The notes beneath the pieces are model-generated. The model ran no database searches. It saw nothing but the letters and a program-made list of their open reading frames with translations, and was not told the origin of the DNA. From Maribacter antarcticus DSM 21422 (GTDB lineage Bacteria; Bacteroidota; Bacteroidia; Flavobacteriales; Flavobacteriaceae), in the NCBI RefSeq assembly GCF_000621125.1, contig NZ_JHZC01000007.1, forward strand, positions 248,001-312,000: a stretch of DNA of 64,000 bases, read 5' to 3'. Positions 42,382 to 61,701 of this stretch are shown one piece after another; the first letter of the stretch is position 1; every line of letters begins with the position of its first letter. Both the position numbers and the translations under genes were made by a program.

Positions 42382-42395
42382 TTAGATATAAACCA

Positions 42396-42540
42396 CCCTA
42401 ACAAGCGGTCATAAGTAAGGCAGGGGAATGTGTTAAATTTGAAATTGAAAACATGTAACAAACGGTGTTGCAGTTTGATAAGTTGTAGCTTAAAAATCCC
42501 GCACTACTGATACCGCAGGCCGTTATGGGCAATTAACACA
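42396..42540 (+). repeat. intergenic palindromic element A (attC-like)
   Basis: A roughly 145-bp intergenic element starts with CCCTAAC, 14 bp after the GH106 stop, and ends with the box GTTATGGGC (42532-42540). The outer regions CCCTAACAAGCGG and GGCCGTTATGGG are partly inverted copies. The inner sequence TCCCGCACTACTGATA (42497-42512) occurs also in element C (TCCCGCACTACTTATA at 48004-48019). The arrangement resembles an integron attC site, but the pairing is weaker than in element F. Confidence 0.5.
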
Positions 42541-42608
42541 TACGGTCGGAGCAAGCTGAAAATAGAACTCAAACAGGCATAAGCATTTAGAAATAAGTTG
42601 CAGTAAAA

Positions 42609-43331
42609 ATGAAAAGAACTATACTTTACTTAATTGGAATCCTAAGCGGATTATTATTTAGTGTAACATCGTGTAATAAAGATTGTGATACGAATCCACA
42701 ACAAAACACTAATACACTGCAGACCTTAGTTACACGAACTTATACAGGTGTACTTGTTGGCTCAACAGGGGCTTATGAATTGAATTTAATTGAAAATGGT
42801 GCAATCGCTTCTGTTGTATTTGATGACGAAACTTATAATTTGTATTCTAACGAAACTTTAGAAAACAGTCAAAGTTTAACATTAAGCGATGGTTCTATTT
42901 CATTAACTGTCGAAGTTGATGAAAATGGAGATAACCCAGCAATATCATTTACAATTCCAGGACATAATATTGAAGCAACCATAGTTTTATCAAATCAAAC
43001 GAATCCAAATCGAAATTATATTGGATCAACAGAAAGTGTTAGTCCTAGTGAAGCAAAAGTTTACAGAACAACGTTTAACCTTACTCTTCACGATGGCAAT
43101 AAATGGACAGGTATTGAAAGAGTTGATTTAGATATTGACCCTGGTAATCCTAACCATCAAAGTGCTCAAGGGCAAACTATAAAAGTTGATGGAACTTTTA
43201 TAGAAAATGAGAGTACTGTTATCTTAACTAGGAGTAATTCTATTTATACTCTATACAAAGTTAGCGATGAGTTGAAATTATATCAAGCCGCTGGTGGCAC
43301 GTTTGAAGTTATGCTGACTCAAGTAAATTAA
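42609..43331 (+). CDS. lipoprotein of unknown function
   Basis: This is a 240-residue lipoprotein with a clear signal (residues 1-22, VTSC lipobox), followed by Asn/Thr-rich linker and beta-rich sequence (NLIENGAIASVVFDD, SISLTVEVDENGD, FNLTLHDGNKW, GTFEVMLTQVN). No known domain is recognised. It lies alone between two palindromic elements (A before, B after), which fits a single-gene cassette. Base composition looks more A+T-rich than in the GH106 gene. Confidence 0.75.
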   Translation: MKRTILYLIGILSGLLFSVTSCNKDCDTNPQQNTNTLQTLVTRTYTGVLVGSTGAYELNLIENGAIASVVFDDETYNLYSNETLENSQSLTLSDGSISLTVEVDENGDNPAISFTIPGHNIEATIVLSNQTNPNRNYIGSTESVSPSEAKVYRTTFNLTLHDGNKWTGIERVDLDIDPGNPNHQSAQGQTIKVDGTFIENESTVILTRSNSIYTLYKVSDELKLYQAAGGTFEVMLTQVN

Positions 43332-43337
43332 AAAACC

Positions 43338-43409
43338 CAATAACAAAAGCTAAGAAAACAGAACCTCCCTTCGGGACGGCGCTATTCCTTAGCTTAGTCG
43401 TTGTAAGCA
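43338..43409 (+). repeat. intergenic palindromic element B (attC-like)
   Basis: A compact imperfect palindrome directly follows the lipoprotein gene. Perfect 8-bp arms AAGCTAAG (43347-43354) and CTTAGCTT (43388-43395) surround a second, G+C-rich hairpin (CCTCCCTTCGGGACGG). The ends are AATAAC on the left and GTTGTAAGCAA on the right. This is the AAC/GTT-ended layout of an attC-like site. Confidence 0.55.
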
Positions 43410-43419
43410 ATTTTGGACC

Positions 43420-43539
43420 GTCCTGAAATATGACCACACAATTACAAAAGGAGCAATAGATGTAATAGGAGCAGAAATAATTATGAAGAGCACTATTGGA
43501 AATGGAACCTCTGTTACTCTTAACATTCCAAAAACTTAA
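43420..43539 (+). pseudogene. C-terminal remnant of a histidine kinase
   Basis: The frame ending at TAA 43537-43539 encodes IGAEIIMKSTIGNGTSVTLN-type sequence (GNGTSVTLNIP at the end). This matches the last strands of the HATPase domain of NarX-like kinases, in the style of IGGxxxxxSxxGxGTxxxxxIP. Nothing of the rest of a kinase lies upstream, as element B comes directly before. It is therefore a truncated 3' fragment. A sequence like an IS end also overlaps its left edge. Confidence 0.5.
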
Positions 43540-43548
43540 ATAAGCAGT

Positions 43549-43813
43549 ATGTATAGAATAATAATTATAACAGATAGAAGAAGTTTACGATACTCTCTTA
43601 ATGGAAGGTTATAGTGTTTTCCCGGCTGAAAGTGAATTTTGTTTTATAGAAGACATTAAAAAACAGATGCATCCAGAAGTTTTAAAACTATACCCTAGTG
43701 CAGAGTTACCTCATTTAAAATCAGAAATAAAAAGTAAAAAGATATGTGAAATTATCAATAATCCTGTTGGATTAATTCTTAACAGCCACTTTTTGAGTAG
43801 CTCTATGTATTAA
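43549..43813 (+). pseudogene. degraded response-regulator-like region
   Basis: An ATG at 43549, 9 bp after the kinase remnant, opens MYRIIIITDRRSL and stops at 43612-43614, which looks like the first strand of a receiver domain. In another frame, a 70-codon ORF from 43601 begins MEGYSVFPAESEF and continues with a Lys/Ser-rich sequence to 43813. The region is probably a decayed two-component gene, broken by frame changes. I cannot reconstruct a whole gene. The 70-codon ORF may be chance. Confidence 0.35.
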
Positions 43814-43848
43814 GAGTTTTATCATAAATCAAAATACAATATTGTAAA

Positions 43849-46164
43849 ATGAGAGAAAGATCGCGAAACGAGAGGAAGGCGCACTTTTTGGAAACGATTA
43901 ATGCGTTCGGTTCTATACTAATGCGGACTAGTTCGACGCAAGAGTCCGCTTGGTGTGTTGCGAAGCACGCCGTTGGAGAGTTAGGATACATTGATTGCAT
44001 TATTTACTTGATCAATGATGATGGAGAACTTTATCAATGTGCAGCTCACGGAAATAAAAATCCCACTGCACAAGATGTTCTGAACCCTATTAAATTGAAA
44101 ATGGGTGAAGGTATTTGTGGACACGTTGCCCTCACAGGAGTAAGTGAGATTATTGCCAACACTTCAAAAGACCCAAGATATATAGTTGATGATGAAGATC
44201 GACATTCAGAGATAACGGTGCCTATTCTTTCGGATGGCCTTGTAATCGGAATTATCGATTCTGAGCATCCAGAGAAAGATTACTTTTCAAATCATGACTT
44301 GGATATATTGAATACGATAGCATCTATGCTATCTTTCAAAATTTCTCAATCAAAAGCAATTGAAGAACTGGCCATTATTAACAAAGAACTTGCCATTCAA
44401 AACGAAGAGAAACAAAAACGTGCAGACGAATTAGCCATTGCCAATACAGAACTTACCTTTCAAAATGAAGAGAAACAAAAACGAGCAGATGAATTAGCCA
44501 TTGCCAATACAGAACTTACCTTTCAAAATGAAGAGAAACAAAAACGAGAAAAGGAATTAACTCTTGCTAACAGAGAAAAAGAAAAACAAGCAAATGTATT
44601 AACCATCGCTGTCAAAGAGCTTGCCTTTCAAAACGAGCTAGAAAAGACCCGCATCGAAACAGAATCTATTGCTAAGGAATTGCGTCAGTTTATTGAAACG
44701 GCCAATGCGCCAATTTTTGGAATAGACAATAAAGGGTTGGTAAACGAATGGAACCAGACTTCTGAAAAAATTACTGGATTTAAAAAAGAAGACGTTTTAG
44801 GTCAAAATTTAGTTAAAAATTATATCACCAAAAATTACCAAGTTGCAGTAAAAAAAGTATTAGACAATGCACTAAAAGGTGAAGAAACTGCCAACTACGA
44901 GTTTCCGTTATTTACCAAAAGTGGTAAGCGTATAATGGTTTTACTCAACTCATCTACGCGTAGAAATGTAGAGGGTAAAATTATTGGAGTGCTAGGTGTA
45001 GGACAAGATATTTCTGAAATGGATAAACTGCGTACCCAATCAGAATCTGTTGCCAAAGAATTGCGCCAGTTTATTGAAACCGCCAATGCGCCAATTTTTG
45101 GCATAGATAATAAAGGTAGGGTAAACGAATGGAACCAAACTTCTGTAAAAATTACTGGATTTACAAAAGACGAGGTATTAGGTAAAAATTTGGTCGAAAC
45201 GTATATCACCCAAGATTACCAAAAACAAGTAAAAGAAGTATTAGACAATGCCCTAAAAGGACAAGAAACTGCCAACTACGAATTTCCGCTATTTACCAAA
45301 AAGGGACAACGTATAATGGTATTATTAAATGCATCTACACGTAGAGATACTGAGGGTAAGATTACCGGAGTGCTCGGGGTAGGACAAGATATTACCATTT
45401 TAAACGAATACAAAGAAAACTTAGAATCCAAGGTAGAATTCCGTACGCAAGAACTTCAAGAGTCCTTAGAACGTGAAAAGGAATTGGGCCAGCTTAAAAC
45501 TAGTTTTGTTTCGATGGCATCACATGAATTTAGAACACCACTCACATCGATAAGAGCCACTTCTGATGTGATTCTGAGGTACTTTGATAAGTTAAGTAAA
45601 GAGGATATTAACAAGCGTTTGATAAAGATTAAAAACGAAGTAAGTGACATGACCACCATACTAGAAGATATTTTAATTATTGGAAAATCTGATGCACAAA
45701 AATTAGACTATAATCCAGAACTTTTGGATATTATTTCTCTAATAAAAGACATCATTACTGAATACCAACTCAGTGAATTCAAAGACAGAGACATAATCTA
45801 TGATATCCCTTTACCTAAAATTATGATACAGGTAGATAAAAAATGGATTAAACACATGGTTCTTAATCTTCTTAGTAATGCACTGAAATATTCAAAAGAT
45901 GATACACGAGTTGAAATCAGCATTAAAAAAGAGCAGGACAGTGTTTCTTTTTGTTTTAGAGATCGTGGTATTGGCATTTCAAAAGAAGATATTAAACTAC
46001 TGCTTAGTCCTTTTCACAGAGGGAACAACGTAGGTGAAATTTCAGGCACAGGATTGGGATTATCTGTTTTACAAAAAGCAGTGGAGTTACATAAAGGTAA
46101 AATAGAGATTGAAAGCGAAATTAATATAGGCTCTAATTTTAAAGTGATTTTACCTGTTTTCTGA
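43849..46164 (+). CDS. GAF-PAS-PAS sensor histidine kinase
   Basis: This 771-residue kinase has no membrane segment. A GAF domain (about 15-165) is followed by a Glu/Lys/Gln-rich coiled coil (about 170-275) with near-exact 21-residue repeats, two nearly identical PAS units (about 275-401 and 402-528), HisKA with phospho-His559 in SHEFRTPLTSIRA, and HATPase with N box LNLLSNALKYS and G boxes DRGIGIS and GTGLGLS. It senses a cytoplasmic signal, probably through GAF or PAS. The next gene codes for a receiver-kinase partner. Confidence 0.92.
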   Translation: MRERSRNERKAHFLETINAFGSILMRTSSTQESAWCVAKHAVGELGYIDCIIYLINDDGELYQCAAHGNKNPTAQDVLNPIKLKMGEGICGHVALTGVSEIIANTSKDPRYIVDDEDRHSEITVPILSDGLVIGIIDSEHPEKDYFSNHDLDILNTIASMLSFKISQSKAIEELAIINKELAIQNEEKQKRADELAIANTELTFQNEEKQKRADELAIANTELTFQNEEKQKREKELTLANREKEKQANVLTIAVKELAFQNELEKTRIETESIAKELRQFIETANAPIFGIDNKGLVNEWNQTSEKITGFKKEDVLGQNLVKNYITKNYQVAVKKVLDNALKGEETANYEFPLFTKSGKRIMVLLNSSTRRNVEGKIIGVLGVGQDISEMDKLRTQSESVAKELRQFIETANAPIFGIDNKGRVNEWNQTSVKITGFTKDEVLGKNLVETYITQDYQKQVKEVLDNALKGQETANYEFPLFTKKGQRIMVLLNASTRRDTEGKITGVLGVGQDITILNEYKENLESKVEFRTQELQESLEREKELGQLKTSFVSMASHEFRTPLTSIRATSDVILRYFDKLSKEDINKRLIKIKNEVSDMTTILEDILIIGKSDAQKLDYNPELLDIISLIKDIITEYQLSEFKDRDIIYDIPLPKIMIQVDKKWIKHMVLNLLSNALKYSKDDTRVEISIKKEQDSVSFCFRDRGIGISKEDIKLLLSPFHRGNNVGEISGTGLGLSVLQKAVELHKGKIEIESEINIGSNFKVILPVF
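44398..44544 (+). repeat. 63-bp tandem repeat in kinase coiled coil
   Basis: Two full 63-bp units (44398-44460, 44461-44523) and part of a third run in frame, encoding 21-residue blocks with NEEKQKRADELAIANTELTF. A 21-residue period equals three heptads, so repeat number changes the length of the signalling helix without breaking its register. Confidence 0.9.
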
Positions 46165-46202
46165 CAGCCAATTAATCGAAATAAAATATACAAAAAACAC
46201 TT

Positions 46203-47303
46203 ATGAAAGAATCAAGAATTTTAGTCATTGAGGACACTAAGAGTATACTAAATGAACTTAAAGCCATCTTAATTTTTGAGGGAATGAAGGTGATTACTGC
46301 AGAAAATGGTCAAGACGGAATTGATAAAGCAAGAGAACACCTTCCTGATCTTATATTATGTGACATTATGATGCCAAAAAAAAATGGCTACGAGGTATAT
46401 GATGAAATAAAACAGGATTCCAATCTAATGCACACTCCCTTTTTATTCATTAGTGCAAAAGCTACTTCTGAAAATAGACGAGAAGGAATGATATTGGGTG
46501 CAGATGATTATATTACTAAACCTTTTGATGTTGACTTACTAATAAAATCTATTGAGACTCGTTTGCGCAAAGAGAAAAAAAGAAAGCAATCAGAAAAAAA
46601 CAAGTTTAAAACACTGCAATACAATATTAGTTGTGCTATCCCACATGAATTATTGACACCGCTAAATGGTATTATTGGGTTTTCAGGCATAATGAAAGAG
46701 CCCGACTTCGAGATAAACGAAGAGGAAGTTAGAAATTTTTCCTTGGCGATTTATGATTCTAGCAATCGACTATTAAGTACGATACAAAAATTTATTTATT
46801 ATACAGAAATTGAATTGCTACTCAATGATGACGAAAAAAAAGCGGTCTTAAAAGAAGAAATTGCTGAGAACGCAGAATTTGAATTAGAAGAACAAAGTCA
46901 TATTATAGCTAAAAAATTCAATCGAAAATCTGACATTGAAATAAATATTAAGTCTTTTAATGCCAAAATAAGTTCCTTTCATTTTGAGATAATTATTGCC
47001 AATATTTTAGACAATGCCTTTAAGTTTTCAAATAAGGGAGACAAAGTTACTGTTGAGGTAGAACTAAAAGATACCCTAGCTAATATTACAATCATTGATA
47101 ATGGAGTCGGTTTTGATGGAGTAACACTAGATGAAGTTGGAGCTTTCACACAGTTTAACCGATCAAAGATGGAGCAACAAGGTTTAGGACTTGGATTGAT
47201 CACTAGTCAAAAACTTATAAACTGCTATGATGGAGAATTGAGTATAAGTAAAAACGAGCCTAAAGGAAGCCGTGTTAAATTATCGTTTTTGATAGCTGAA
47301 TAA
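46203..47303 (+). CDS. receiver-histidine kinase hybrid, no output domain
   Basis: This 366-residue protein begins with a receiver domain (about 1-125; phosphoacceptor Asp in LILCDIMMPKKNG, Lys in DDYITKPFD). A linker and a HisKA-like segment (ISCAIPHELLTPLNGIIGF) follow, then a HATPase domain with LDNAFKFSNKG, DNGVGFD and GLGLGLIT. No DNA-binding or enzyme output domain is present. It starts 38 bp after the kinase gene and is likely its phosphorelay partner. Confidence 0.88.
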   Translation: MKESRILVIEDTKSILNELKAILIFEGMKVITAENGQDGIDKAREHLPDLILCDIMMPKKNGYEVYDEIKQDSNLMHTPFLFISAKATSENRREGMILGADDYITKPFDVDLLIKSIETRLRKEKKRKQSEKNKFKTLQYNISCAIPHELLTPLNGIIGFSGIMKEPDFEINEEEVRNFSLAIYDSSNRLLSTIQKFIYYTEIELLLNDDEKKAVLKEEIAENAEFELEEQSHIIAKKFNRKSDIEINIKSFNAKISSFHFEIIIANILDNAFKFSNKGDKVTVEVELKDTLANITIIDNGVGFDGVTLDEVGAFTQFNRSKMEQQGLGLGLITSQKLINCYDGELSISKNEPKGSRVKLSFLIAE

Positions 47304-47468
47304 AAAACGGTATAGTAACAATAGGTATGGTGCATTTTACAATGAAAGACCTAAAAATAAATATTATAGCAAAAAATACCATTTACAGCGAGTTGAATAG
47401 GAAGTATTATAAAATACCAAACGCAGCATATTTAATTTTTTGTAAACAATAGCTCAAAAAGCGAAAAG

Positions 47469-47657
47469 ATGGATAAATTATTGAAAAGCAATATTTACAC
47501 AGATATTATTTGGCTACTAATTGGTGTTATTGGAAGTCTATATTATTTCTTTAAACCTAGTTATTGGACATGTGCCATTTTCTCATTTCTCGCTGTTTTA
47601 TACCTAGTCAAAATAATCAATAACTTAATCCAAAAGAATGGTTCAAATTCCGAATAA
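47469..47657 (+). CDS. small two-helix membrane protein
   Basis: This is a 62-residue protein with two hydrophobic segments (about 10-27 IIWLLIGVIGSLYYFF and about 33-52) and a polar C terminus ending GSNSE. It starts with an ATG preceded by an A/G-rich stretch. No family is recognised. It lies 165 bp after the receiver-kinase gene, in a region that has no other gene up to the IS110 relic. Confidence 0.5.
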   Translation: MDKLLKSNIYTDIIWLLIGVIGSLYYFFKPSYWTCAIFSFLAVLYLVKIINNLIQKNGSNSE

Positions 47658-47863
47658 ATTGTAAGCTAAAAAAGCAAGTTTGTGAACGAACGAACCACTC
47701 TATCGAAATCTTTCTACAGATGCATTATTACGCAAATTTGCGCAAATGGACTTCAATCAGAGGCAAATTTTACGCAGAACTTTAATCGGACTGAAAAATA
47801 ACGGAATTTGACGTGCTTACTCAAACGTGTAGAAACTGATTACAACAGAAGCTATAAGTAATG
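47658..47863. other. intergenic stretch with no gene seen
   Basis: Together with element C this makes a 399-bp gap without a coding region. I see no ORF of convincing composition, no terminator and no RNA signature here. A short repeat-like run (ACGCAAATTTGCGCAAATGG) is palindromic but has no known role. Confidence 0.4.
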
Positions 47864-48030
47864 TGGGCTAAGTGCTAAATCGAAAGGTTTGTGTATTTTG
47901 ATAAGGTTGAAAAACCTTTAGAATTTTACTTTAGACTAGAAAAAATAAATTAAAATAAAAAGATTTCGCTGAGCGTTATGGCGCGTGGAAATTGCTTCTC
48001 TACTCCCGCACTACTTATAAGCACTGTGTC
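47864..48030 (+). repeat. intergenic palindromic element C (attC-like)
   Basis: A roughly 165-bp element begins at GGGCTAAGTGCTAAATCG and ends at TATAAGCACTGTG, partly inverted ends. Its internal TCCCGCACTACTTATA (48004-48019) matches element A. A GCGTTATGGCG motif is at 47983. Its right end is cut by the left end of the IS110 relic, so the terminal GTT box of the other elements is missing. Confidence 0.45.
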
Positions 48031-48056
48031 AAAAAGTAAGTTTTTTCTTTAAATTT

Positions 48057-48384
48057 TCAAGAAACAAGTTGCTGTATCAAGTTGTTATTCTGCACAGCAA
48101 GAGCTTCATGCTTTTGCTGCTTTTTCTTTTCAAACCCTGCGTCGTAAACTTCTTCATTCTTCCACAAAGTGTACATGAGGATCAAGCACTTTCTCTGCAC
48201 TACTATTAAGGCAACTAATGGCTTTGCTTTCTTGGACTTCAATCTATTATAGAATTGTTTCAATGTCAGGTTACACGGAACACAAGTAATCGAAGGCATT
48301 TGTAAGGCCGCCCTGATGTGACTGTTTCCCTTTTTACTGTTTCTCGTTTCCCCCTTAAAATTACCAGACTCCCGTAATACGATA
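48057..48384 (-). mobile_element. IS110-family transposase, C-terminal relic
   Basis: A frame on the minus strand is open from the junction at 48384 to the stop at 48057 and encodes a classic IS110 C terminus: ESGNFKG, KKGNSHIRAALQMPSIT, and FYNRLKSKKAKPLVALIVV. The catalytic N-terminal half is absent. It is cut exactly where the katG copy begins. The element is therefore a dead remnant. Confidence 0.8.
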
Positions 48385-48698
48385 TCGCAACCGATTTTAT
48401 AGCAACATGAATCAAGGCGATGAACTTAGATCGTTTTGATTTGGCTTAAGTGACATCAAGTTTTTAATAGTATAATAAAGTGGCCTGTAATAAGGCCACT
48501 TTATTTGTCTACCGATAGCTGTGGCCCAGAAGAATCCAGCGTGCTAAAATGGATTAACTAGTCGTTTGTAAGCGCATATTATAGACATACTATAGCTGTA
48601 GTACCTTTCTGTTTCCTATAAATACTAGATTATGTATATCTTACTGCTATAAATGGAATATACGTACTAGCACGCATATTCAGTTGTTGGGCTTAATT
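48385..48698 (+). repeat. katG 3'-end direct repeat, copy 2
   Basis: This is the second copy of the 314-bp segment, with about 26 substitutions and no gap against 39223-39536. Its katG part is decayed: the Trp codon of the copy-1 sequence ATAGCAACATGG is TGA here, and Val/Thr codons are changed. It ends at the first codons of the DUF3857 gene. Confidence 0.9.
48474..48505 (+). terminator. duplicate katG terminator
   Basis: An exact copy of the terminator at 39312-39343, lying upstream of the DUF3857 pair, so it may insulate that pair from the IS110 side. Confidence 0.75.
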
Positions 48699-52653: not shown

Positions 52654-52677
52654 TTCATTATACTCAATCGCTAACCA

Positions 52678-52821
52678 ATGATTAAATTCTTTAGAAAAAG
52701 CAGTCAACAGCTTGTTAAACAGCATAAAGTAGATAAACAACTAATTTTTGAATTGTCAATTCTATCAAGTTTAAATTATATTACATCGAAATTTAACTAT
52801 CAAACGGAACTACTCACATGA
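52678..52821 (+). pseudogene. N-terminal remnant of a DUF6090 gene
   Basis: A 47-codon frame begins MIKFFRKSSQQLVKQHKVDK, very like the start of DUF6090 proteins. It lacks the membrane helix (YAIGEIVLVVIGILIAL) that must follow and ends at the S9 peptidase start. The DNA before it resembles that before the intact DUF6090 gene at 55853. A cassette of that gene was cut here. Confidence 0.5.
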
Positions 52822-55610
52822 ATCTCAATAAAACTAAACGCCTTCTCATTTCTTTATTCGCTATTTCAACAATAGTACTGTTTGTTAATTCTCTAGAAGC
52901 GCAAGAGAAAAAATTGATTACCCCAGAAGAATATGGAAAATGGGAGTTACTGGAAAGCAGCGCGATTTCCAAAGATGGCAAGTGGTCTAGCTATCAAGTA
53001 GACAAGATGAATAAAGACAGAACAACTATTCTTTATAACATTATAAAGAATAAAACAATCTCTTACGATAACACAGCTAAAGCAAAATTTTCTAAAACTG
53101 GTAATTGGTTCGTCTACGAAAAAGTCCTGACTGGTAAAGAACAAAAGATTAAAGATAAGAAAGACAAAAAAGATAAGGAAGATAAGAAAGAAGAGCCTGA
53201 GATGAACGACAAAGTTTTGGTCAATTTGTCAAATTCTGACACCTTGCTTCTAAAAGGTGTTATAAAATATAGTTTCAATGAGAAGGATACTTACTTCGCG
53301 ATGCTTAGGGAAAATGAGGGTGTCAATACCCTCATAATACAAAATCTCAAAACTCAATCACAAATGAGTTTTGGAAATATAAAGTCCTTTGATTGGCAAA
53401 CGAAAGGAGAGCTTTTAGCAATGATCGTGGAAACAAAAGACTCTATTGCGAATGGCATTCAACTATATGATCCGAATCAAGGAATCTTAAAAGTGTTAGA
53501 TCAGTCCGCTCAAATCTATTCTCATTTAGAATGGGGTGAAAAATCGGATTATTTATTTGCCATAAAAGCGATAAAAAAAGAGAGGTCAGAAGAAGAATCG
53601 TACCAATTACTTCATTGGAAAGACTTTTCAAAATTGAACCCCATATTCTCTAACTTTAATCCCAATAAAACAAAATCATTTCCAGATGCTATAAGAATCT
53701 TATCAGATAACATTAAGATTTCAGATGACGGAAACAGCGTATTCTTTGAGACCTATTCTTGGATACAAACTGAGGAAATGCAAAAAAATAAGTCAGAGGA
53801 GGTAGATGAAAAAAACGCAAAGGAAGGTGATGATTATGAAGCTCCAGATCTAGAGATATGGCACAGTAAGGATGAATTAATGATTACCCAGCAAAAGAAA
53901 AGTACAAATAAGAGCTCTGAGGAACCAATCCAATATGTATGGCACGTTGATAAAAATAGCAATCTGCCTCTAAGCGATAAACTAGTTGAAAATATGCGCT
54001 TGCAAGTTAACAATAAGATGATGATAGGTTTTGACCAGTCTCCTTACTCATTTGATGCTATGTTTGGTAGACCTAGCAACGATATTTACATTGTAAATAT
54101 TGAAAAGGGTGAGAAGAAAAAGGTGCTTACTAACATAAAATATACTTCGCCTGTAAGCCCTAATGGTAAATACTTCGTTTTTGTAGAAGATAACAACTTG
54201 CATTTATATGACATTGTAAAAGAGTCATCCACTACTATTACATCTAATTTAGAAGGTACGTTTATACAAGGTGATGCATTCGATTATCCAGTAGATGAAA
54301 AACCGCCATTTGATGGTGGATTGTCCGCTTGGAGTAAAGATGGTAATTCATTCCTATTTAATTCTGAATTTGATGTTTGGCAAGGGTTTGTAAATGGAAG
54401 TCCTTCAAAACGCCTTACTAAGGGAAAAGAAGATGAAATCATTTACAGACATTGGTTCGTCTATGAAGAGGATAAATTTATTGATTTGCAGAAAGAACAG
54501 TTCTTTTCAATGAGAGGTAAGAAATCTAAGAAATCAGGTTACTCAAAAGGAATACTTGGTAAAAAAATGAAGACTTTAATTTATGATGAGGCACGTATTT
54601 ACCCCTTAGATAAACCTCATCAAGATCTTGATATATTAACCTATAGAACTCAGTCTTTTAATCAATCACCAAATCTAAGTATCACAGATTTAAATTTTTT
54701 AAACTCAAAAGGGGTTTCTAATACAAATTCTTTTCAAGACGAATATGCTTGGGGTGAGGCTGAACTGATAACATATACTAATGCTAAAAATAAAAGCGCT
54801 CAAGGAATTCTGTACTATCCAGCTAATTATCAAAAGGGTAAGATATATCCAATGATAACTTATGTATATGAAACGCTTTCTGATAGGTTTCATAGATATA
54901 CTGTACCCTCTAAGACGAACTACTATAACACTACCGTCTGGCAGCAAGAGGGCTATTTTGTGTTGAAGCCAGACATAGAATTTATCGCTGGAGATCCCGG
55001 AGTTTCCTCTGCAAAGACATTAGAGAATGCTGTCGCAGCGGTAATAGAAAAAGGTGATGTTGACCCTAAAAAAGTTGGTCTAATCGGGCATTCTTGGGGT
55101 GGTTACCAAGCAGGTTTTGTACCTACTCAAACGGACATTTTTGCAGCCAGTGTAGCTGGTGCTGGCTTGACTAATTTTATTTCTATGTATTTAGCAATAA
55201 CACCCGCATTTGAAGGATCTCCTGAAAATGCCCATTTTGAAATTTCCCAAGAACGTATGATTAGCCCACCATGGAAATCTCCAGAAAATTACCTTCGTAA
55301 TTCATCTGTAATGAATGTTGAATCATTAAATACGCCAATTCTATTTGAAGTTGGGGACAATGATATGAATGTGAATTGGAGACAAGGAATCGAGTATTAC
55401 AATGCAGCCCGAAGAGCAGGCAAGCAATTTGTGATGCTTGTTTATGCAAATGAAGGCCATGGTATTAAAGAAGACAAGAATGCATCTGACTATCAACAGA
55501 AGATACTAAAGTGGTTTGGCCACTACTTAAAAGGGGAAGAAGCCGAAGATTGGATACTGAAAGGAATTCCTTATAGGGAGCAACTACGCAGGTTAAAAAA
55601 AGCGGAATAG
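52818..55610 (+). CDS. S9 family peptidase (prolyl oligopeptidase type)
   Basis: This is a 930-residue exported serine peptidase (signal about 1-28, ending EAQEK). An N-terminal beta-propeller (to about 630), interrupted by a Lys/Asp-rich segment at about 105-135 (KDKKDKKDKEDKK), is followed by a catalytic alpha/beta hydrolase domain (about 650-920). The nucleophile Ser is in LIGHSWGGYQ, the Asp in VGDNDMNVNW and the His in ANEGHGIK. It cleaves peptides, with substrate not known. It stands between elements D and E. Confidence 0.9.
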   Translation: MNLNKTKRLLISLFAISTIVLFVNSLEAQEKKLITPEEYGKWELLESSAISKDGKWSSYQVDKMNKDRTTILYNIIKNKTISYDNTAKAKFSKTGNWFVYEKVLTGKEQKIKDKKDKKDKEDKKEEPEMNDKVLVNLSNSDTLLLKGVIKYSFNEKDTYFAMLRENEGVNTLIIQNLKTQSQMSFGNIKSFDWQTKGELLAMIVETKDSIANGIQLYDPNQGILKVLDQSAQIYSHLEWGEKSDYLFAIKAIKKERSEEESYQLLHWKDFSKLNPIFSNFNPNKTKSFPDAIRILSDNIKISDDGNSVFFETYSWIQTEEMQKNKSEEVDEKNAKEGDDYEAPDLEIWHSKDELMITQQKKSTNKSSEEPIQYVWHVDKNSNLPLSDKLVENMRLQVNNKMMIGFDQSPYSFDAMFGRPSNDIYIVNIEKGEKKKVLTNIKYTSPVSPNGKYFVFVEDNNLHLYDIVKESSTTITSNLEGTFIQGDAFDYPVDEKPPFDGGLSAWSKDGNSFLFNSEFDVWQGFVNGSPSKRLTKGKEDEIIYRHWFVYEEDKFIDLQKEQFFSMRGKKSKKSGYSKGILGKKMKTLIYDEARIYPLDKPHQDLDILTYRTQSFNQSPNLSITDLNFLNSKGVSNTNSFQDEYAWGEAELITYTNAKNKSAQGILYYPANYQKGKIYPMITYVYETLSDRFHRYTVPSKTNYYNTTVWQQEGYFVLKPDIEFIAGDPGVSSAKTLENAVAAVIEKGDVDPKKVGLIGHSWGGYQAGFVPTQTDIFAASVAGAGLTNFISMYLAITPAFEGSPENAHFEISQERMISPPWKSPENYLRNSSVMNVESLNTPILFEVGDNDMNVNWRQGIEYYNAARRAGKQFVMLVYANEGHGIKEDKNASDYQQKILKWFGHYLKGEEAEDWILKGIPYREQLRRLKKAE

Positions 55611-55698
55611 CTTGTCCTAAATTATCAATAATCAATTTTGTGTCGACTTGGGATTGATGGAGTTTTTGTACAAGCTTATAAAAAAGAAAATAACGAAA

Positions 55699-55829
55699 GC
55701 ACAATAATGTATAAAAACAATAGCCTGTTCAGTACTAAAATCAAGGTTGATAACCACTTTAAACTTTCTTGTAACTTGACGAGGAATGAAGTTTAAACTC
55801 GGCTACCATTCTTATGCTTACCGTTCTAC
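55699..55829 (+). repeat. intergenic palindromic element E (attC-like)
   Basis: This element starts GCACAATAATGTATAA and ends with GTTCTAC. Left TATAAAAACAATAGCC pairs with ACTCGGCTACCATTCTTATG, and an inner CACTTTAAACTT is inverted to AAGTTTAAACTC. It is clearly related to element D in sequence and layout, and precedes the DUF6090 start by 23 bp. Confidence 0.6.
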
Positions 55830-55852
55830 TTTATTACACAAACCACTAACCA

Positions 55853-56572
55853 ATGATAAAATTCTTTAGAAAAATCCGTTACGACCTTATGGAACAAAAT
55901 AAAACAGCCAAATACTTTAAGTATGCCATTGGCGAAATTGTGCTTGTGGTTATAGGTATTCTAATTGCGCTTCAAATAAATAATTGGAATGAATCTAAAA
56001 AAGAACGCAGTTATGAAAATTACATATTAACAGAGATTTCCGCCAATTTAGCTGCAGATATAGTCCAAATTGAACATATTTTAACCCAAAGAAGAAAAAC
56101 ACAGAAATCATTATTACGAATTAAATCCTATTTGAAAACTGAAAATATAATTAAAGATTCTCTCATTTATGACATTGTTCAACTATACACTTTTGAGAGA
56201 TATTTCTCAACTAATACGGCTTATGAAATATCAAAAGCAAAAGGATTACAAATTTCTAATGAATCTCTTAGAACTCAAATAGCAAATTATTATGAACACG
56301 AACAGAACAAAGCACATAGTAGTATTCAAGATATTGAGAGAGCGTTTTTAGATGAATTTCTAATAGGAATGAAAGAATTCATATTAGATTATAATTACGG
56401 GGTAAGTGTTACATTGAAAAAATTTCCAGATGCTGCATTAAATGATTGGTTACAAAATTATCTTGTGGGATTTGAACCTAATCATAAAGCTTCGCTTGAA
56501 ATAATTGAATTGTTTAGCGAAGTAAATAAGAACCTAAGACTTAAAGTAGATCAGGAGTTACTTAGATTTTAA
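55853..56572 (+). CDS. DUF6090 family membrane protein
   Basis: This 239-residue protein has the usual DUF6090 start, MIKFFRKIRYDLMEQNK, then one membrane helix (IGEIVLVVIGILIALQINNW) and a long soluble, helical remainder (about 50-239). DUF6090 proteins are short membrane proteins of unknown function, very common and variable in Flavobacteriaceae. It stands between palindromes E and F, the same neighbourhood as the remnant at 52678. Confidence 0.85.
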   Translation: MIKFFRKIRYDLMEQNKTAKYFKYAIGEIVLVVIGILIALQINNWNESKKERSYENYILTEISANLAADIVQIEHILTQRRKTQKSLLRIKSYLKTENIIKDSLIYDIVQLYTFERYFSTNTAYEISKAKGLQISNESLRTQIANYYEHEQNKAHSSIQDIERAFLDEFLIGMKEFILDYNYGVSVTLKKFPDAALNDWLQNYLVGFEPNHKASLEIIELFSEVNKNLRLKVDQELLRF

Positions 56573-56587
56573 AAAAAGAAAACGAAA

Positions 56588-56721
56588 GGCTAACACGGTG
56601 TATAATTAATTGCTTTGGCAGGTGCTTATCTGGAAAATTCCTTCGGAATTTTCTCTAGTCCGTATTTGTTTACTAATTGAGTTACTTAATCACGCAACTA
56701 ACCATACACGAACCGTTGTGC
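56588..56721 (+). repeat. intergenic palindromic element F (attC-like)
   Basis: This is the clearest element. It starts GGCTAAC 15 bp after the DUF6090 stop and ends GTTGTGC. GTGTATAATTAATTGC (56598-56613) pairs with GCAACTAACCATACAC (56694-56709) with three mismatches, ACGG pairs with CCGT with extra unpaired bases on one arm, and a central hairpin has perfect 9-bp arms, GAAAATTCC (56633-56641) and GGAATTTTC (56645-56653). Terminal boxes, unequal arms and a central hairpin match attC architecture. Confidence 0.65.
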
Positions 56722-56761
56722 TTCATTATGACCCGTTCTGAAATATGTATACAAAAATCAA

Positions 56762-57112
56762 ATGTATATGTATACAAATGATGGATATGTGAGACGTTAT
56801 AGCGAGAGCTTTAAACCCAAAGTATTAGTAGAGCTTACCAAAGGAAACCATTCCAAAAGACAAATTACATTAACTTACGGAGTACGATCTAGTGCGATGA
56901 ATGAATGGATTAAAAAGTATAATCGTAAGGATCTAATGAACACCCGTCTAACCGTGCAAACAGACGATGAATTATCCCGTATTAAAGCACTTCAAAAAGA
57001 GCTAAAACAACTCAAAGACCTTCTTATTAAAAAGGATTTAGAGAAGCTTGTTAACGACAGTTCTCTTGCAGTAGCTGCCCAAGACCTAGGGTATAAAGAT
57101 GTGGAGAATTAA
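56762..57112 (+). CDS. IS3 OrfA, frameshifted C terminus
   Basis: This 116-codon frame encodes an HTH protein (RRYSESFKPKVLVELTKGNH, a helix-turn-helix, then a leucine-zipper-like region), the DNA-binding half of an IS3 transposase. It stops at TAA 57110-57112. In another frame the next bases would read ELKKKLNI and end at TAG 57129-57131, the usual end of such OrfA proteins. One extra or missing base around 57100 explains this. Confidence 0.8.
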   Translation: MYMYTNDGYVRRYSESFKPKVLVELTKGNHSKRQITLTYGVRSSAMNEWIKKYNRKDLMNTRLTVQTDDELSRIKALQKELKQLKDLLIKKDLEKLVNDSSLAVAAQDLGYKDVEN

Positions 57113-57136
57113 AAAAAAGTTAAACATCTAGCCCTA

Positions 57137-57994
57137 ATGAAAGTAGCACCTAAGAAGCGACAGGATAGACTGTTCTCCATAGCGATAATTTGTGAGGCCA
57201 TCTCTTTAAAAAGAGATGCATATTACAAATTCCATAAACGGTATCTAGCTAAAAAAGAGGTGGAACAAATAGTTATTAGCCTCGTTTGAAAAAGTAGAAG
57301 AACACTACCTAGAGAAGGCACTAGAAAACGGTTGAAGTCATTACATAGAGACTTTAAAGAACAACACCTGAAAATGGGTAGGGACATACTATTCAGTATC
57401 ATGAGGGAAAATGAACTGCTCGTTAGAAGAAAAAAACATTCTTCTAGAACTACCAACTCCTATCACTGTTTTTATAAATACAATAACAGGATAAAAAAAT
57501 TGAAAATACATAGGCCTAATCAAGTTTGGGCTGCAGATATCACCTATAACAGAACCATAAAAGGATTCTGTTATCTGGCACTCATTACAGACTTATACTC
57601 GCGTAAGATTGTCGGTTATGACCTTAGTGATAGTTTAGGACTTACCGGCTGCGTAAGAGCTCTTAAGAAGGCCTTATATCAAAACAAAATAACTGAAAAA
57701 CTGATTCATCATTCAGACAGGGGTATTCAATATTGCAGTAATGTGTATGCCAATGAACTCAAAAGAAAAAAGATAGATATGAGTATGACGGAAGGTAACC
57801 ATTGCTATGAAAATGCTATAGCAGAGCGTGTTAACGGAATGCTAAAAGATGAATTTTATCTTAATCAAACCTTTTTTAGTGTTGTTCACGCTAAAAAAGC
57901 AGCTAAAAATCCAATCAAATTATACAACTCTAAAAGATTGCCTTTATCTTTAGAGTACAAAACACCCAATTACGTGCACCAACATGCCGCTTAA
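57137..57994 (+). pseudogene. IS3 OrfB transposase with in-frame TGA
   Basis: A DDE integrase frame runs from 57137 to 57994 but is broken at TGA 57287-57289. Downstream, the catalytic residues are present: VWAADITYN (Asp), IHHSDRGIQYCS (Asp) and YENAIAERVNGMLKDE (Glu). The interrupted place reads LVxKSRRTLPREGTRKRL, where an Arg codon (CGA or AGA) would be expected. Only an internal start at 57332 is open afterwards, and it lacks the N terminus. Confidence 0.82.
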
Positions 57995-58108
57995 ATTTAA
58001 TATCAATCTATAGCCGTATTTCGGGACGTGACAATTTGTAGTTTTCAACTTAAGAACTTGAAAATGCGGACTAAATATAACCTTAAACGAAATAAAATCG
58101 AAACTAAA

Positions 58109-59425
58109 ATGAAAAACACACTTCTATTGCTCCTATTAATCTTGCTTTTGGGTTTTCAAAATACAAACGCCCAATCGAATAGTATCCAAAACAAAATCCA
58201 AACTAACGTAAAAGGGATTGAGCAGAAGGTGATTGATTGGCGCAGGGATATTCATCAACATCCTGAATTAGGCAATCGCGAAGTTCGAACTGCAGCTCTC
58301 GTGGCAACCCATTTACAATCGCTTGGAATGGAAGTACAAACTAATGTTGGTATAACGGGTGTCATAGGTACTCTTAAAGGTAGTCTTCCAGGCCCTGTAA
58401 TAGCGTTACGAGCAGATATGGATGCCTTACCTGTCTTAGAAAGAACTCCTGTTCCTTTTGCCTCCAAAGTTAAAACTATGTACGATGGAAAAGAAACGAA
58501 TGTGATGCATGCTTGTGGTCACGATTCTCACGTAGCCATTCTCATGGGTGTTGCCGAAATTTTGTCTGGCATGCAAAAGGACTTAAAAGGAACCGTTAAA
58601 TTTATTTTTCAACCTGCTGAAGAAGGGGTTCCGAAAGGGGAAGAAGGTGGTGCCGAACTTATGGTTAAAGAGGGCGCATTAAAAAACCCACAGGTTGATG
58701 TTATCTTCGGACTTCATATTAATGCGCAAGTTGAGGTTGGAAAAATCACCTATCGCCCTGGTGGAATGTTTGCAGGAGTTGCTGACTTGAAGATTACAGT
58801 AAAAGGAAAGTCGTCACATGGTGCAGAACCTTGGTCTTCAGTTGATCCGATTGTAACGGCTGCACAAATCATCAATAATCTTCAAACCATAATTAGCCGT
58901 AATATCAATATTACACGAAATGCTGCTGTGGTTACTATTGGTTCTATACATGGTGGTAACCGTTCCAACATAATTCCTGAACAAGTGGAGATGTTAGGAA
59001 CGGTAAGAACGTTAAGTGATGCTGATGAAAAATTGATTTTTGAACGTATTTTTCAAATAGCAACTAAAACCGCTGAAGCAAACGGGGCTGAAGCTATTGT
59101 GGAACTACCGTATTCATCGCATTATCCAGTTACCTTCAATAACCTTGAACTTACAGCCAAAATGTTGCCTTCCTTACAGAAATCTGCTGGCTTGTCAAAT
59201 GTGCTGCTGGTACCGGCAGAAACTGGAGCAGAGGATTTTTCATTTTTTGCTAATGAAGTCCCAGGTTTTTATTTTTATATAGGTGGATTGCCAAAAGGGC
59301 AAGATTCAGAAACTTCAGCGCCTCATCACACTCCAGATTTTTTTATTGATGAAAGTGGGTTTAGTACCGGGATTAATGCAATGGTAAATTTAGTAGCTGA
59401 TTATATGGAAATGGGTAAGTTGTAA
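58109..59425 (+). CDS. M20 family amidohydrolase, exported
   Basis: This 438-residue metallohydrolase has a signal peptide (about 1-22, ending NTNAQ) and an M20 fold typical of hippurate or IAA-amino-acid hydrolases. Metal motifs: ALRADMDALPV, VMHACGHDSHVA (Cys, His, Asp), FQPAEEG (Glu), FGLHINA and, at the end, GAEDFSFF. The dimerisation domain (KGKSSHGAEP, PWSSVDPI) is present. The frame stays open 27 codons upstream, into the IS end, but the ATG at 58109 starts the signal peptide. It hydrolyses an N-acyl or peptide bond in the periplasm. Confidence 0.9.
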   Translation: MKNTLLLLLLILLLGFQNTNAQSNSIQNKIQTNVKGIEQKVIDWRRDIHQHPELGNREVRTAALVATHLQSLGMEVQTNVGITGVIGTLKGSLPGPVIALRADMDALPVLERTPVPFASKVKTMYDGKETNVMHACGHDSHVAILMGVAEILSGMQKDLKGTVKFIFQPAEEGVPKGEEGGAELMVKEGALKNPQVDVIFGLHINAQVEVGKITYRPGGMFAGVADLKITVKGKSSHGAEPWSSVDPIVTAAQIINNLQTIISRNINITRNAAVVTIGSIHGGNRSNIIPEQVEMLGTVRTLSDADEKLIFERIFQIATKTAEANGAEAIVELPYSSHYPVTFNNLELTAKMLPSLQKSAGLSNVLLVPAETGAEDFSFFANEVPGFYFYIGGLPKGQDSETSAPHHTPDFFIDESGFSTGINAMVNLVADYMEMGKL

Positions 59426-59433
59426 AAAAATAA

Positions 59434-59492
59434 AAACGGTACTTAATAATGTTTATGGGGAATTATAAATACATTTTAACTAAACGTTGAAG
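59434..59492 (+). repeat. short palindromic element G, weak
   Basis: Only a partial pairing is seen: AACGGTACTTAA near the left and TTAACTAAACGTT near the right, with GTTGAAG as a terminal box. It follows the M20 stop and is much shorter than elements A-F. It may be a shrunken relative or chance. Confidence 0.3.
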
Positions 59493-59548
59493 TTCAGTAT
59501 GACCCATTGCCCTAACGAATACAAAACTAATTTTGTAAAAAACATAAG

Positions 59549-59986
59549 ATGAAAGTATTAGCAATAGAAGTTATGAGTAATGCAGCAGGGATGCTGCTTA
59601 TAGATGGCAATCAAAAAACGTATTCGGTAACAAATCTTGGCAAAGCACTATCCATACCAAAAGAAGATACGTCAATAAAAAGCATCATAGCGTTTCAAGC
59701 GAATTTCGCTATGCATCTTCAGAATCAAACTATTGATAAGGTTGTTTTATGCGAAGGAGGAAATGACTCAAAGAAAATGAGAGTTAGAATGGAATTTGCA
59801 ATTCTTAGTGAATGTGAAAAGCAGGCTATTGACAATGTAACCTATCCTACAGGTTCTTGCACACGATTAATTAACTCAACGTATAAAAAAGATACAGGCC
59901 GGGAATTTTCAGACGAATTAGCTAGTTTTAAATTGCCTAAATATATGGGGAAATCACTTGCTGCTGGTTGGCGGTTTTTAGAATAA
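59549..59986 (+). CDS. DUF3010-like protein
   Basis: This 145-residue protein begins MKVLAIEVMSNAAGMLLIDG and has the RNase H-like strand order of DUF3010 proteins, as in IDKVVLCEGGND and RMEFAILSE. I assign DUF3010 by impression only. It has no signal peptide. It lies 123 bp after the M20 gene, with the weak element G in the gap. Confidence 0.5.
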   Translation: MKVLAIEVMSNAAGMLLIDGNQKTYSVTNLGKALSIPKEDTSIKSIIAFQANFAMHLQNQTIDKVVLCEGGNDSKKMRVRMEFAILSECEKQAIDNVTYPTGSCTRLINSTYKKDTGREFSDELASFKLPKYMGKSLAAGWRFLE

Positions 59987-60036
59987 TAGCATATTAGGAA
60001 GGCATTAAAAATTCTGATTATAGCCAAATAAAAAGA

Positions 60037-60150
60037 ATGCTATGTGATAGGCTTATCACTATTGAGTGGGGAGATGCCATGGCCTATTTCCATAAAGTTC
60101 CTATGAAAAATTTAAATAGGATTCTGTCTTTAGGCCTAGTTACGCATTGA
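60037..60150 (+). CDS. 37-codon ORF, doubtful
   Basis: The ORF encodes MLCDRLITIEWGDAMAYFHK and ends NRILSLGLVTH. Its amino-acid composition is plausible, but the frame is short and I recognise no family. It may be the end of a lost gene. It sits between the DUF3010-like gene and the next small ORF. Confidence 0.2.
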   Translation: MLCDRLITIEWGDAMAYFHKVPMKNLNRILSLGLVTH

Positions 60151-60180
60151 TTTTGATAGAAAACTCAAGATGTGCGCGCT

Positions 60181-60468
60181 ATGGCTACGGTGACTATAAA
60201 TTCTTTAAAAGATGAATTTTCAAAGAACAATCCTATGAGCTTTAGGTATAGGTTTCATTTTAAATCAGGAAAATTAGCCAAAATTGAAAACCTAGCCCGT
60301 CGTAATGTAAATCGGAAGCTATGGAAGAAAGAAGTGGACTCCTTAGTTAATGGGGTGAAGCTAAACCACCCTGAATTTGAGGGGTTTATTAGCGACTTAG
60401 CGATGAAAGGTACATTAAATTACATGAAAGCAATAGCATTATATAAGAACAGAGAAAGCACCCCTTAG
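60181..60468 (+). CDS. small basic protein of unknown function
   Basis: This 95-residue protein starts at an ATG three codons inside a slightly longer frame that begins with GTG. It is basic and helical (FRYRFHFKSGKLAKIENL, NRKLWKKEVDSLVNGVK, LNYMKAIALYK). No family is recognised. It follows the DUF3010-like gene in the same direction. Confidence 0.45.
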   Translation: MATVTINSLKDEFSKNNPMSFRYRFHFKSGKLAKIENLARRNVNRKLWKKEVDSLVNGVKLNHPEFEGFISDLAMKGTLNYMKAIALYKNRESTP

Positions 60469-60495
60469 CCGATAGTTGCCTGTGAATGTAGCAGC

Positions 60496-60636
60496 TTAAT
60501 GCTGCTTTCTCGCCCTTTTATTTCTACTTCTCCTAAAATTCCTGCTGTTTCTTGTAAAGTAAGCGACTACACCCAACCCTACAGCAACAAAAGTGACTGT
60601 ATACAAGATAGTGTAAGCCTCATTTGGTATATCCAT
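60496..60636 (-). CDS. 46-residue single-pass membrane protein
   Basis: The minus-strand frame MDIPNEAYTILYTVTFVAVG continues LGVVAYFTRN and ends in a strongly basic tail, RRSRNKRARKQH. It has one membrane helix and a positive-inside tail, which fits a genuine small membrane protein. It lies downstream of miaE on the same strand. On the other strand an overlapping ORF has no such logic. Confidence 0.4.
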   Translation of the reverse strand: MDIPNEAYTILYTVTFVAVGLGVVAYFTRNSRNFRRSRNKRARKQH

Positions 60637-60790
60637 ATTCCTAAGATACAAAAAATAGGTAACTTATTGTTTGTTAGCTTAGTGGCGCGGTTTTACGAGG
60701 CTTGAACCGTAACATTCAGTCCTGCGAACGTCAAAGCGCTGCCTGTTTTCACTCGTCTACGGTTTCTTCTTCTGTGTAGTTTTGAATCAC

Positions 60791-61330
60791 TTAAACTTTA
60801 AATGTACCCAACTCTTGCCAGCGTTTGTCTACCTCTATACCCTTCCCGTATTTGCGATTAAAGCCAATAAAAATGGTATAGTGCCCCGCTTCACTGGTCA
60901 TAAGGTCATGGTAGAATTTAGAAAGTTCTGGGTCTTTTATTTCTGCAGAAAGTAGTTTAAAGCGTTCACAGCTTCGCGTCTCTATCATGGCAGAGAATAA
61001 GAGTCTTTCTGCCATAGATTGTAATCTACTACCCCCTTTGCTCATAAATTTGTAAAGCTCGTTTACATAGCTATCCTTGCGTTCTCTGCCTAAGGTATAG
61101 CCGCGCTTCTTTATAATATCATGTGCCATTTGAAAGTGCACCAACTCTTCTTGGGCTAGCAATACTAAATCCGTCACTAAATCTGGGTGTTCAGAATTAA
61201 AGGTAATGATGGTAATTGCGTTTGTTACCGCCTTTTGTTCACACCACGCATGATCTGTTAGTATTTTCTCTATGTTCTTTTCAGCAATGTTGACCCAGCG
61301 CGGATTTGTTGCTAATTTTAAATGAAGCGT
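60791..61330 (-). CDS. miaE: tRNA-(ms2io6A)-hydroxylase MiaE, start codon changed
   Basis: This di-iron hydroxylase of about 179 residues modifies position 37 of tRNA. The iron ligands are in ILTDHAWCEQKA (Glu), QEELVHFQMAH (Glu, His), ETRSCERF (Glu) and SEAGHYTIF (Glu, His). The frame is intact back to LHLKLATNPRWVN, where family members begin MLHLKLAT, but here the codon before CTT is ACG (61328-61330), and a stop lies two codons upstream. The only standard starts are internal, for example GTG at 61177, which would remove the first iron ligand. So either ACG works or the gene is impaired. Confidence 0.75.
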   Translation of the reverse strand, partial: TLHLKLATNPRWVNIAEKNIEKILTDHAWCEQKAVTNAITIITFNSEHPDLVTDLVLLAQEELVHFQMAHDIIKKRGYTLGRERKDSYVNELYKFMSKGGSRLQSMAERLLFSAMIETRSCERFKLLSAEIKDPELSKFYHDLMTSEAGHYTIFIGFNRKYGKGIEVDKRWQELGTFKV

Positions 61331-61591
61331 GGGGGTTTATTTTTGTAAAAACAGGGATATATTCTCCGCTGCTCGTAGCTTTAGTCTCCATAAATTACGC
61401 TTCAGAATAGCTACTTCAACATGAATAGAATATAAGAAAGGGGAAACCTACAGTTGTTCATTATACTTATTTTATTTAGGCGAACATAAAATTTTAAGTA
61501 ACACTTTATGTTACGTTAAAGGACTAATCAGTTATCCTCATTTTTTAAATATATAGTGATAGAGATACCAAAACTTATAATTAATTTACAA
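61331..61591. other. intergenic stretch with no gene seen
   Basis: With element H and the lead-in to the DUF3095 gene this makes a 413-bp gap. It contains no convincing ORF, terminator or RNA gene. It is the probable promoter region for the leftward miaE, although no promoter motif is clear. Confidence 0.4.
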
Positions 61592-61701
61592 GGCCATGTG
61601 TTACTCGGAATATCCTACGAATTGCGCTAAGGTTTGGTTTCCTTGTTCTAAGTTTGTCGCTTAAACACGCAACAAACCATCTGCCTAAACGAACGTTGTA
61701 A
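61592..61701 (+). repeat. intergenic palindromic element H (attC-like)
   Basis: This element resembles the right half of element F: CTTAAACACGCAACAAACCAT here, CTTAATCACGCAACTAACCAT there, followed in both by an ACGAAC(C)GTTGT end. A small internal hairpin (AAGG with CCTT) is present. It precedes the DUF3095 gene by 42 bp. Its left half is less like F. Confidence 0.5.

Follow-up and report, generated by a model that had tools for sequence, protein, structure and literature searches.

The closest described systems are integrons with an IntI-type integrase, whose recombination sites (attC) share a GTTRRRY box; in most known integrons the integrase does not read in the direction of the array. 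According to excerpts of PMC2727003 and PMC4792948, the strand of a known attC is chosen mainly by extra-helical bases, which are accommodated by the I2 domain of the integrase, and the excerpt of PMC4792948 describes this IntI-specific domain as not identified elsewhere. Clusters of attC sites lacking integron integrases (CALINs) are defined, in a section of PMC9668308, as at least two attC sites less than 4 kb apart without an integron integrase. Here we report on a stretch of 64,000 nucleotides from the genome of Maribacter antarcticus DSM 21422 (contig NZ_JHZC01000007.1, positions 248,001–312,000; "the window" below), which contains seven palindromic elements (A–F and H) at 42.4–61.7 kb, each on the + strand. 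We are highly confident that these elements are attC-type sites of an integron-like system of Bacteroidota with a dedicated tyrosine recombinase, recognizable by an integrase at the array head, an attI site, cassettes with complementary ends and bottom-strand folding of the sites. The window itself is an eroded stretch of such a cassette array: its elements are real and attC-like, and the proof comes from other loci.

Copies of elements F and C in the M. antarcticus genome were used to build two covariance models, R1 (45 F-class sequences) and R2 (18 C-class sequences). Twenty integrase regions were fetched and 19 were scanned (L117, which ends just after the gene, was left out). In all 19 Flavobacteriaceae loci, each with an intact integrase, the deduplicated elements (171 of 171) lie downstream of the integrase and on its strand, and none was found upstream of it in 134.5 kb; the raw model matches before deduplication (145 and 67 rows in two scans) are likewise all on the integrase strand. 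Of 28 further loci scanned with R1, three have matches (L196, L197 and L200), again all on the strand of the integrase. Sites of the R1 and R2 classes are mixed behind one integrase and follow the same box rule and stem plan, so that one recombinase per class seems unnecessary.

A cassette-like start after the integrase stop was seen by eye in the first eight relatives inspected and likewise in the relative from the window's own genus (L090). In 16 of the 19 loci, a GTT located 26–125 bases past the integrase stop matches the left box of the first attC at 6–7 of 7 positions; this GTT is the best among those in 260 bases, and permutation of the boxes among the loci gave a mean of 1.7 and at most 8 of 19. 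The attI site thus lies beside the integrase, at the cassette start, as in an integron. Of 33 loci, several with little sequence past the gene, ten show a 10-base match between attI and a cassette end; by chance it is estimated to occur in a few percent of loci. In five of the 19 loci a perfect palindrome of 22–28 bases ends 3–6 bases before the attI GTT.

The cassettes themselves are defined by their ends. Over four bases in 150 pairs of consecutive sites from the other loci, the first bases of a cassette after GTT are complementary to those before its own AAC at 94.7% of positions, versus 38.6% with partners shuffled, and complementarity is full (4 of 4) in 137 pairs, versus a shuffled mean of 9.8; in 144 pairs from the M. 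antarcticus genome the agreement is 75.0% versus 36.7%, with 74 pairs fully complementary. Within a single linear element, agreement between the left and the right box is much lower over four bases (0.37 in M. antarcticus, 0.45 in the others), and the two halves of a site therefore belong to the same cassette. Where a cassette has an open reading frame, the longest one mostly follows the direction of the array (128 of 137 and 122 of 130 cassettes). Tandem cassettes in one orientation, with one attC each and complementary ends, are what an integron contains.

Comparison of copies of the same cassette delimits the borders. The 275 cassettes with both ends located, a length of 150–6000 bases and 400 bases of flank yield 120 same-cassette pairs; a single family of ~582 bp accounts for 105, and some of the others are tandem neighbours. 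The pairs have a mean identity of 0.85 in the last 30 bases and of 0.40 past GTT. On the right, homology ends at most 6 bases from the cassette end in 71 pairs, at 7–20 bases in 36 and elsewhere in 13, while on the left it ends within 3 bases of GTT in 22 pairs, at 4–30 in 41, at 100–165 in 49, where the neighbouring site is of the same class, and elsewhere in eight. Clean examples are a stretch of 1005 bases with 98.2% identity and one of 431 bases with 99.8%, both ending at GTT. Among same-cassette pairs the borders thus mostly lie at the GTT box, where a sequence-only reading of the window had proposed to look for them. L150 and L152, which come from two congeneric species, share a cassette that is identical at 599 of 600 bases after GTT. 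The attI regions on which it borders are dissimilar (52 of 104 aligned positions) and differ in the base preceding GTT, and the integrases are 41% identical (153 of 370); these figures come from separate alignments before and after GTT, since the first BLAST alignment ran on upstream of GTT. Tandem copies of cassettes were also noticed, namely a 99.4% identical pair at L107:15403–16683 and three in a row in L112 (reverse strand, oriented 16661–18034), as repeated capture or unequal exchange would leave.

The sites share a covarying stem. A stem of 13 pairs was examined in 119 R1 sites of the 19 loci, all of them independent of the sequences from which R1 was built: 94.7% of its cells are paired (75.6% when shuffled) and 236 have changed on both sides (59 when shuffled); the covariation of 0.424, versus 0.102, was reached in 0 of 500 shuffles, and the signal is abolished by sliding the stem partner. 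This covariation speaks for the proposal of the sequence-only reading that a recombinase might act on structure more than on sequence. Two mismatches are kept as top-strand A x C in 102 and 111 of the 119 sites, and are G.T on the bottom strand; an A x C occupies the equivalent position in all 18 C-class sequences. Counted over 16 positions including the mismatch columns, 97.3% of cells are paired on the bottom strand and 82.4% on the top strand. In DNA folds of circular R1 sites, a set restricted to cassettes whose ends are complementary at 5 or more of 7 positions, the bottom strand had the higher stability in 113 of 115 from the 19 loci and in 39 of 44 from M. antarcticus. Judged by these folds and pairings, the sites thus have the better-folding bottom strand and the strand-determining asymmetry of integron sites. 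An extra-helical base is present at column 183, the sole column checked, in 27 of the 119 aligned R1 sites; otherwise the stems have mismatches and loops. The one-sided wobbles in the stem, together with the absence of the I2 insertion described below, suggest a different way of strand choice.

The recombinase at the head of the arrays is related to IntI and lacks its characteristic insertion. For two proteins the best NCBIfam match is NF040815, over its cut-off, while the integron integrase model TIGR02249 (213.6 and 207.1 versus 265 bits), whose weak matches led to the new integrase, and the Xer models TIGR02224 and TIGR02225 are under theirs. The alignment to IntI4 (2a3v in the PDB) breaks where IntI4 has about 43 extra residues, and the spacing of the catalytic motifs is 65–66 residues in 39 of 39 measured distinct open reading frames versus 107 in 27 of 27 measured IntI proteins (six of 45 and four of 31, respectively, could not be measured by the motif pattern); the roughly 42-residue I2 insertion is therefore absent. 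The residues matching R, K, H, R, H and Y, which we take to be catalytic, are invariant in 16 of 16 aligned sequences. A predicted structure superimposes on IntI4 with Z 21.7 and an rmsd of 2.8 over 257 residues, and on XerA with Z 24.4 and a much larger rmsd. A quick tree of 122 proteins places the new integrases together with IntI on a branch (SH-aLRT 100) that excludes Xer; within it the 31 IntI rows form a clade of their own, and the rows of the new integrases are not gathered in a single clade.

Most of the new integrases (36 of 39 measured) possess an N-terminal extension of some 75 or more residues. L113, L114 and L015 lack it, and since L114 still heads a clean array, the N-terminal domain is not essential. 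Pfam searches with 16 integrases gave no convincing named family outside the recombinase domains, and comparison of the N-terminal 80 residues with PDB sequences gave nothing below E 1. A structure search with the predicted domain returned XPB damage-recognition domains in the first seven rows (Z 6.3–6.6, rmsd 1.8–2.8), and the SMARCAL1 HARP domain scored Z 4.2; all these values are below Z 8, and the likeness of the predicted domain to XPB/HARP is only suggestive. The integrases of L204 and L014 appear by eye to have two copies of the N-terminal domain.

The integrase and the elements occur together. In 199 Flavobacteriaceae genomes, with 17 candidates scored per genome, an integrase match at E 1e-40 (in some cases to a broken copy) was found in 125 and R1 elements in 169; 119 genomes have both, 6 the integrase only, 50 elements only and 24 neither (119 of 125 versus 50 of 74, Fisher p 4.6e-7), and the median number of R1 matches is 12 with the integrase versus 2 without it. 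Named carriers include Winogradskyella ursingii, Seonamhaeicola aphaedonensis, Psychroflexus gondwanensis, Algoriphagus ornithinivorans, Rufibacter and Pontibacter. A group of 13 sub-cut-off matches, 12 from other families and L160 from Flavobacteriaceae, has R1/R2 elements in L149, L150, L152 and L160; no attI-like start was seen by eye in L151, L153, L154 and L158, and L154, L158 and L159 have fewer than 600 bases past the gene. Relatives of the integrase were also noticed on contigs labelled archaeal (L213, L217 and L219; Undinarchaeales, Woesearchaeota), which may be contamination. As to cargo, 100 of 129 cassette proteins were drawn and 92, from the cassettes of L098–L115, were scanned. 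They match 57 Pfam families at 1e-5, with one to three members each among the 25 families listed, and 67 PADLOC models at 1e-10, where one protein can match several models; the 25 models listed include the anti-phage defence models PDC-S20, PifA, QatA, methyltransferases and PD-T4-1.

The prediction that copies of the window elements would be found elsewhere in the M. antarcticus genome was amply borne out: BLAST gave 41 matches for F in the genome (itself included) and 39 for C in the fetched stretches, and because there are dozens of copies of each, F and C are not chance palindromes. In 407 kb, i.e. the window and 19 fetched stretches, 178 deduplicated R1/R2 elements were counted, partial, cut-off and overlapping model matches having been left out here as in the 19 loci. 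They keep to one strand per contig, save five weak reverse matches (in L053, L061, L051, L057 and L059), dropped as lying on palindromes already counted. Elements run through the fetched parts of contigs C17, C21, C22, C24, C25 and C26, and through C4 from about 236 kb to its end, and we infer that the contigs with elements are one large array split by repeats in the assembly. The ~582 bp cassette was seen in 15 copies here (L046, L047, L048, L052–L056, L058, L060, L061), with a reading frame that looks broken or short in the two copies read, as though it were a runaway cassette.

At the start of contig C3, a tyrosine recombinase is followed by two genes and then an element. This recombinase matches its relatives only from residue 133 on, with one stop codon within the matched stretch, and between its stop and the first gene lies an attI-like site, GTTGGCAA, complementary to the left box of the C3 element. 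A tyrosine recombinase, which the sequence-only reading had proposed to look for, is thus present in truncated form at an array head in the same genome, and its intact relatives head all 19 loci described above. Because this truncated protein is the sole family member found at an array head there, the arrays of M. antarcticus are probably relics, frozen unless helped in trans. The C3 array head (L062:541–3000) was seen by eye to adjoin ordinary chromosomal genes, encoding a CBS-domain and a PII-like protein.

The window contains the following features, with element coordinates determined by reading:

42393–42531, + strand: attC-like element A, core from AAC at 42400 to GTT at 42524; arms like class C, no R1/R2 model match
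42522–43402, + strand: cassette A–B, gene 42609–43331 (240 aa); end complementarity 4/7
43342–43402, + strand: attC-like element B, short class; no R1/R2 model match
43400–48028, + strand: cassette B–C, GAF/PAS histidine kinase 43849–46164 and response regulator/kinase 46203–47303; end complementarity 6/7
47844–48028, + strand: attC-like element C, R2 class, 167 bits; right GTT mutated to GTG
48026–52649, + strand: interval C–D, two DUF3857/transglutaminase genes 48697–50565 and 50562–52523; ends non-matching (1/7)
52528–52649, + strand: attC-like element D, 27 bits with R1; 73% identical to E
52647–55825, + strand: cassette D–E, S9 peptidase 52818–55610; end complementarity 5/7
55703–55825, + strand: attC-like element E, 25 bits with R2; left AAC mutated to AAT
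55823–56717, + strand: cassette E–F, DUF6090 gene 55853–56572; end complementarity 4/7
56592–56717, + strand: attC-like element F, R1 class, 134 bits with R1
56715–61697, + strand: interval F–H, M20 peptidase 58028–59425 and DUF3010-like gene 59549–59986; eroded, end complementarity 2/7
about 61564–61697, + strand: attC-like element H, degenerate R1 class, 45 bits with R1

The sequence-only reading of this region as a gene-cassette array without an integrase in the window stands, as do its seven elements and their common strand; the starts it gave deviate by 4 bases in A, B, D, E and F, by 20 in C and by 28 in H. The three sequence classes that it distinguished are right in outline: the kinship of D and E holds, F and H have 21 bases in common by BLAST and H also matches the F-class model, while the likeness of A and C is confined to the arms. 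F was used in building R1 and C in building R2, so the independent model matches are H, D and E only. We judge the window to be eroded because C is without its GTT and E without its AAC, H is degenerate and only some neighbours have matching ends. The 240-aa product of cassette A–B has a weak S-layer match, below the Pfam cut-off. Transposase-like gene fragments were noticed by eye inside the array at 56762–57112 and about 48040–48480. Rfam gave no match and no tRNA was found in the window.

Several observations weigh against the reading of these elements as sites of an integron-like system. Folded singly on both strands (12 folds), six window elements (C being too long for inclusion) show no significant gain over shuffles (z -0.04 to -1.84); it was the alignments that settled the question of folding. 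The complementarity of cassette ends in the window is weak (4, 6, 1, 5, 4 and 2 of 7 for six consecutive pairs; mean 2.1 of 7 for the other 43 pairings). The stem alignment was fitted to the model structure with three pairs added by hand, so that its figures lean towards that structure, and the mismatch columns of the 16-position count were chosen after an alignment had been seen. The strand bias of R2 circular sites is weaker, the bottom strand being favoured in 19 of 23 from other loci and 40 of 52 from M. antarcticus. The 19 loci were picked for long contigs, some having already been seen to have elements, and three of them gave no clean first cassette. Six of the 125 genomes with an integrase match have no R1 match, and 50 of the 74 without a detected integrase have elements, as would be expected from relic arrays, action in trans or missed integrases. 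The tree was built quickly and has long branches. Finally, recombination itself is deduced from sequence.

The most serious of the rivals, which we nevertheless consider very improbable, is that these are ordinary IntI integrons or CALINs, the IntI having been missed or lost and the recombinase at the head being an unrelated neighbour. The general layout is indeed the same, and canonical IntI is present elsewhere in the phylum, with TIGR02249 over cut-off in 105 of 394 genomes of a phylum sample. However, the same model exceeds its cut-off in 0 of 199 Flavobacteriaceae genomes, and within the same class it does so in the phylum sample only in G247, a genome of another family; the R1/R2 models have no match in three canonical IntI loci, and the array head is occupied by the new recombinase in 19 of 19 loci, 16 of which have attI near its stop. 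Slightly less probable still is that the arrays are integron-like while host XerC/XerD is the true enzyme and the linked recombinase only a helper or passenger. The new recombinase is related to Xer, and an excerpt of PMC4792948 says that XerCD integrates the CTX phage through a folded site, but the position, direction, attI and co-occurrence of the linked recombinase, and the invariance of its catalytic-set residues noted above, speak against it. That a Y1 transposase spread REP- or IS200/IS605-like palindromes and genes came to lie between them at random would suit palindromic, many-copy, intergenic elements, but is almost certainly wrong in view of the single orientation over whole contigs, the end complementarity, the GTT borders and the fixed position behind one recombinase, although no search aimed at Y1 transposases was made.

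On this reading of the elements as attC-type sites, the IntI-related recombinase without the IntI insertion, which is encoded at the array head and reads in the cassette direction, would carry out the reaction on a single-stranded substrate, at the attI site that lies shortly past the integrase stop and ends in GTT. Incoming cassettes would be circles with one attC, whose outer arms (N7AAC...GTTN7) are cassette-specific and complementary. The bottom strand would fold to a stem, which would hold because the top-strand A x C become G.T pairs, and the integrase, its N-terminal domain possibly reading the hairpin, would join the folded strand to attI at or next to the bond between G and TT; replication would then resolve the joined product, by analogy with integrons. 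A fuller account strikes us as an even call: this would be a Bacteroidota integron lineage branching beside or before IntI and without the IntI domain, in which the strand is set by one-strand G.T pairs, self-matched outer stems may favour capture over loss and, in most members, an XPB/HARP-like N-terminal domain takes over hairpin recognition, perhaps serving Flavobacteriaceae as their main means of gene capture.

The open-access literature yielded no such integron in Flavobacteriaceae, most subscription papers and all preprints lying outside the search; an excerpt of PMC10013915, in which IntegronFinder 2.0 was run on a Tenacibaculum, reports no integrons. With both a non-IntI integrase match and sites in 119 of 199 Flavobacteriaceae genomes, the system, if active, would amount to a large reservoir of mobile cassettes not yet catalogued, candidate anti-phage genes among them. 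It would also allow a test of whether folded single-stranded DNA can be recombined without the IntI-specific domain.

Among known systems, the IntI integrons (sedentary chromosomal ones, e.g. that of Vibrio cholerae) are similar in having a tyrosine recombinase, attI and a one-direction array, hairpin sites with AAC/GTT boxes of which the bottom strand folds better, and an integrase on the same tree branch. Unlike IntI, the new integrase has no insertion (65–66 versus 107 residues), and unlike IntI-type attC the sites have one-sided G.T pairs in the stem, with an extra-helical base at the one column checked in 27 of 119 R1 sites only. The new integrase reads in the same direction as its array, and the site box is GTT followed by about 7 cassette-specific complementary bases. 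Like CALINs, the window and its genome are clusters of sites without a complete integrase; unlike CALINs, they are accompanied by a truncated non-IntI integrase and are defined by R1/R2, not by the IntegronFinder attC model. NCBIfam describes NF040815, whose cut-off two of the proteins pass, as 'site-specific tyrosine recombinase/integron integrase', and the core fold is the same as that of XerA, XerC and XerD, but the new integrases lie outside the Xer branch, are linked to attI and arrays, and in 36 of 39 measured cases carry the N-terminal extension. The anatomy is thus that of an integron, but the enzyme falls short of the IntI cut-off and lacks the insertion, two defining tests of the IntI type, and hence we call the system a new variant, working like an integron.

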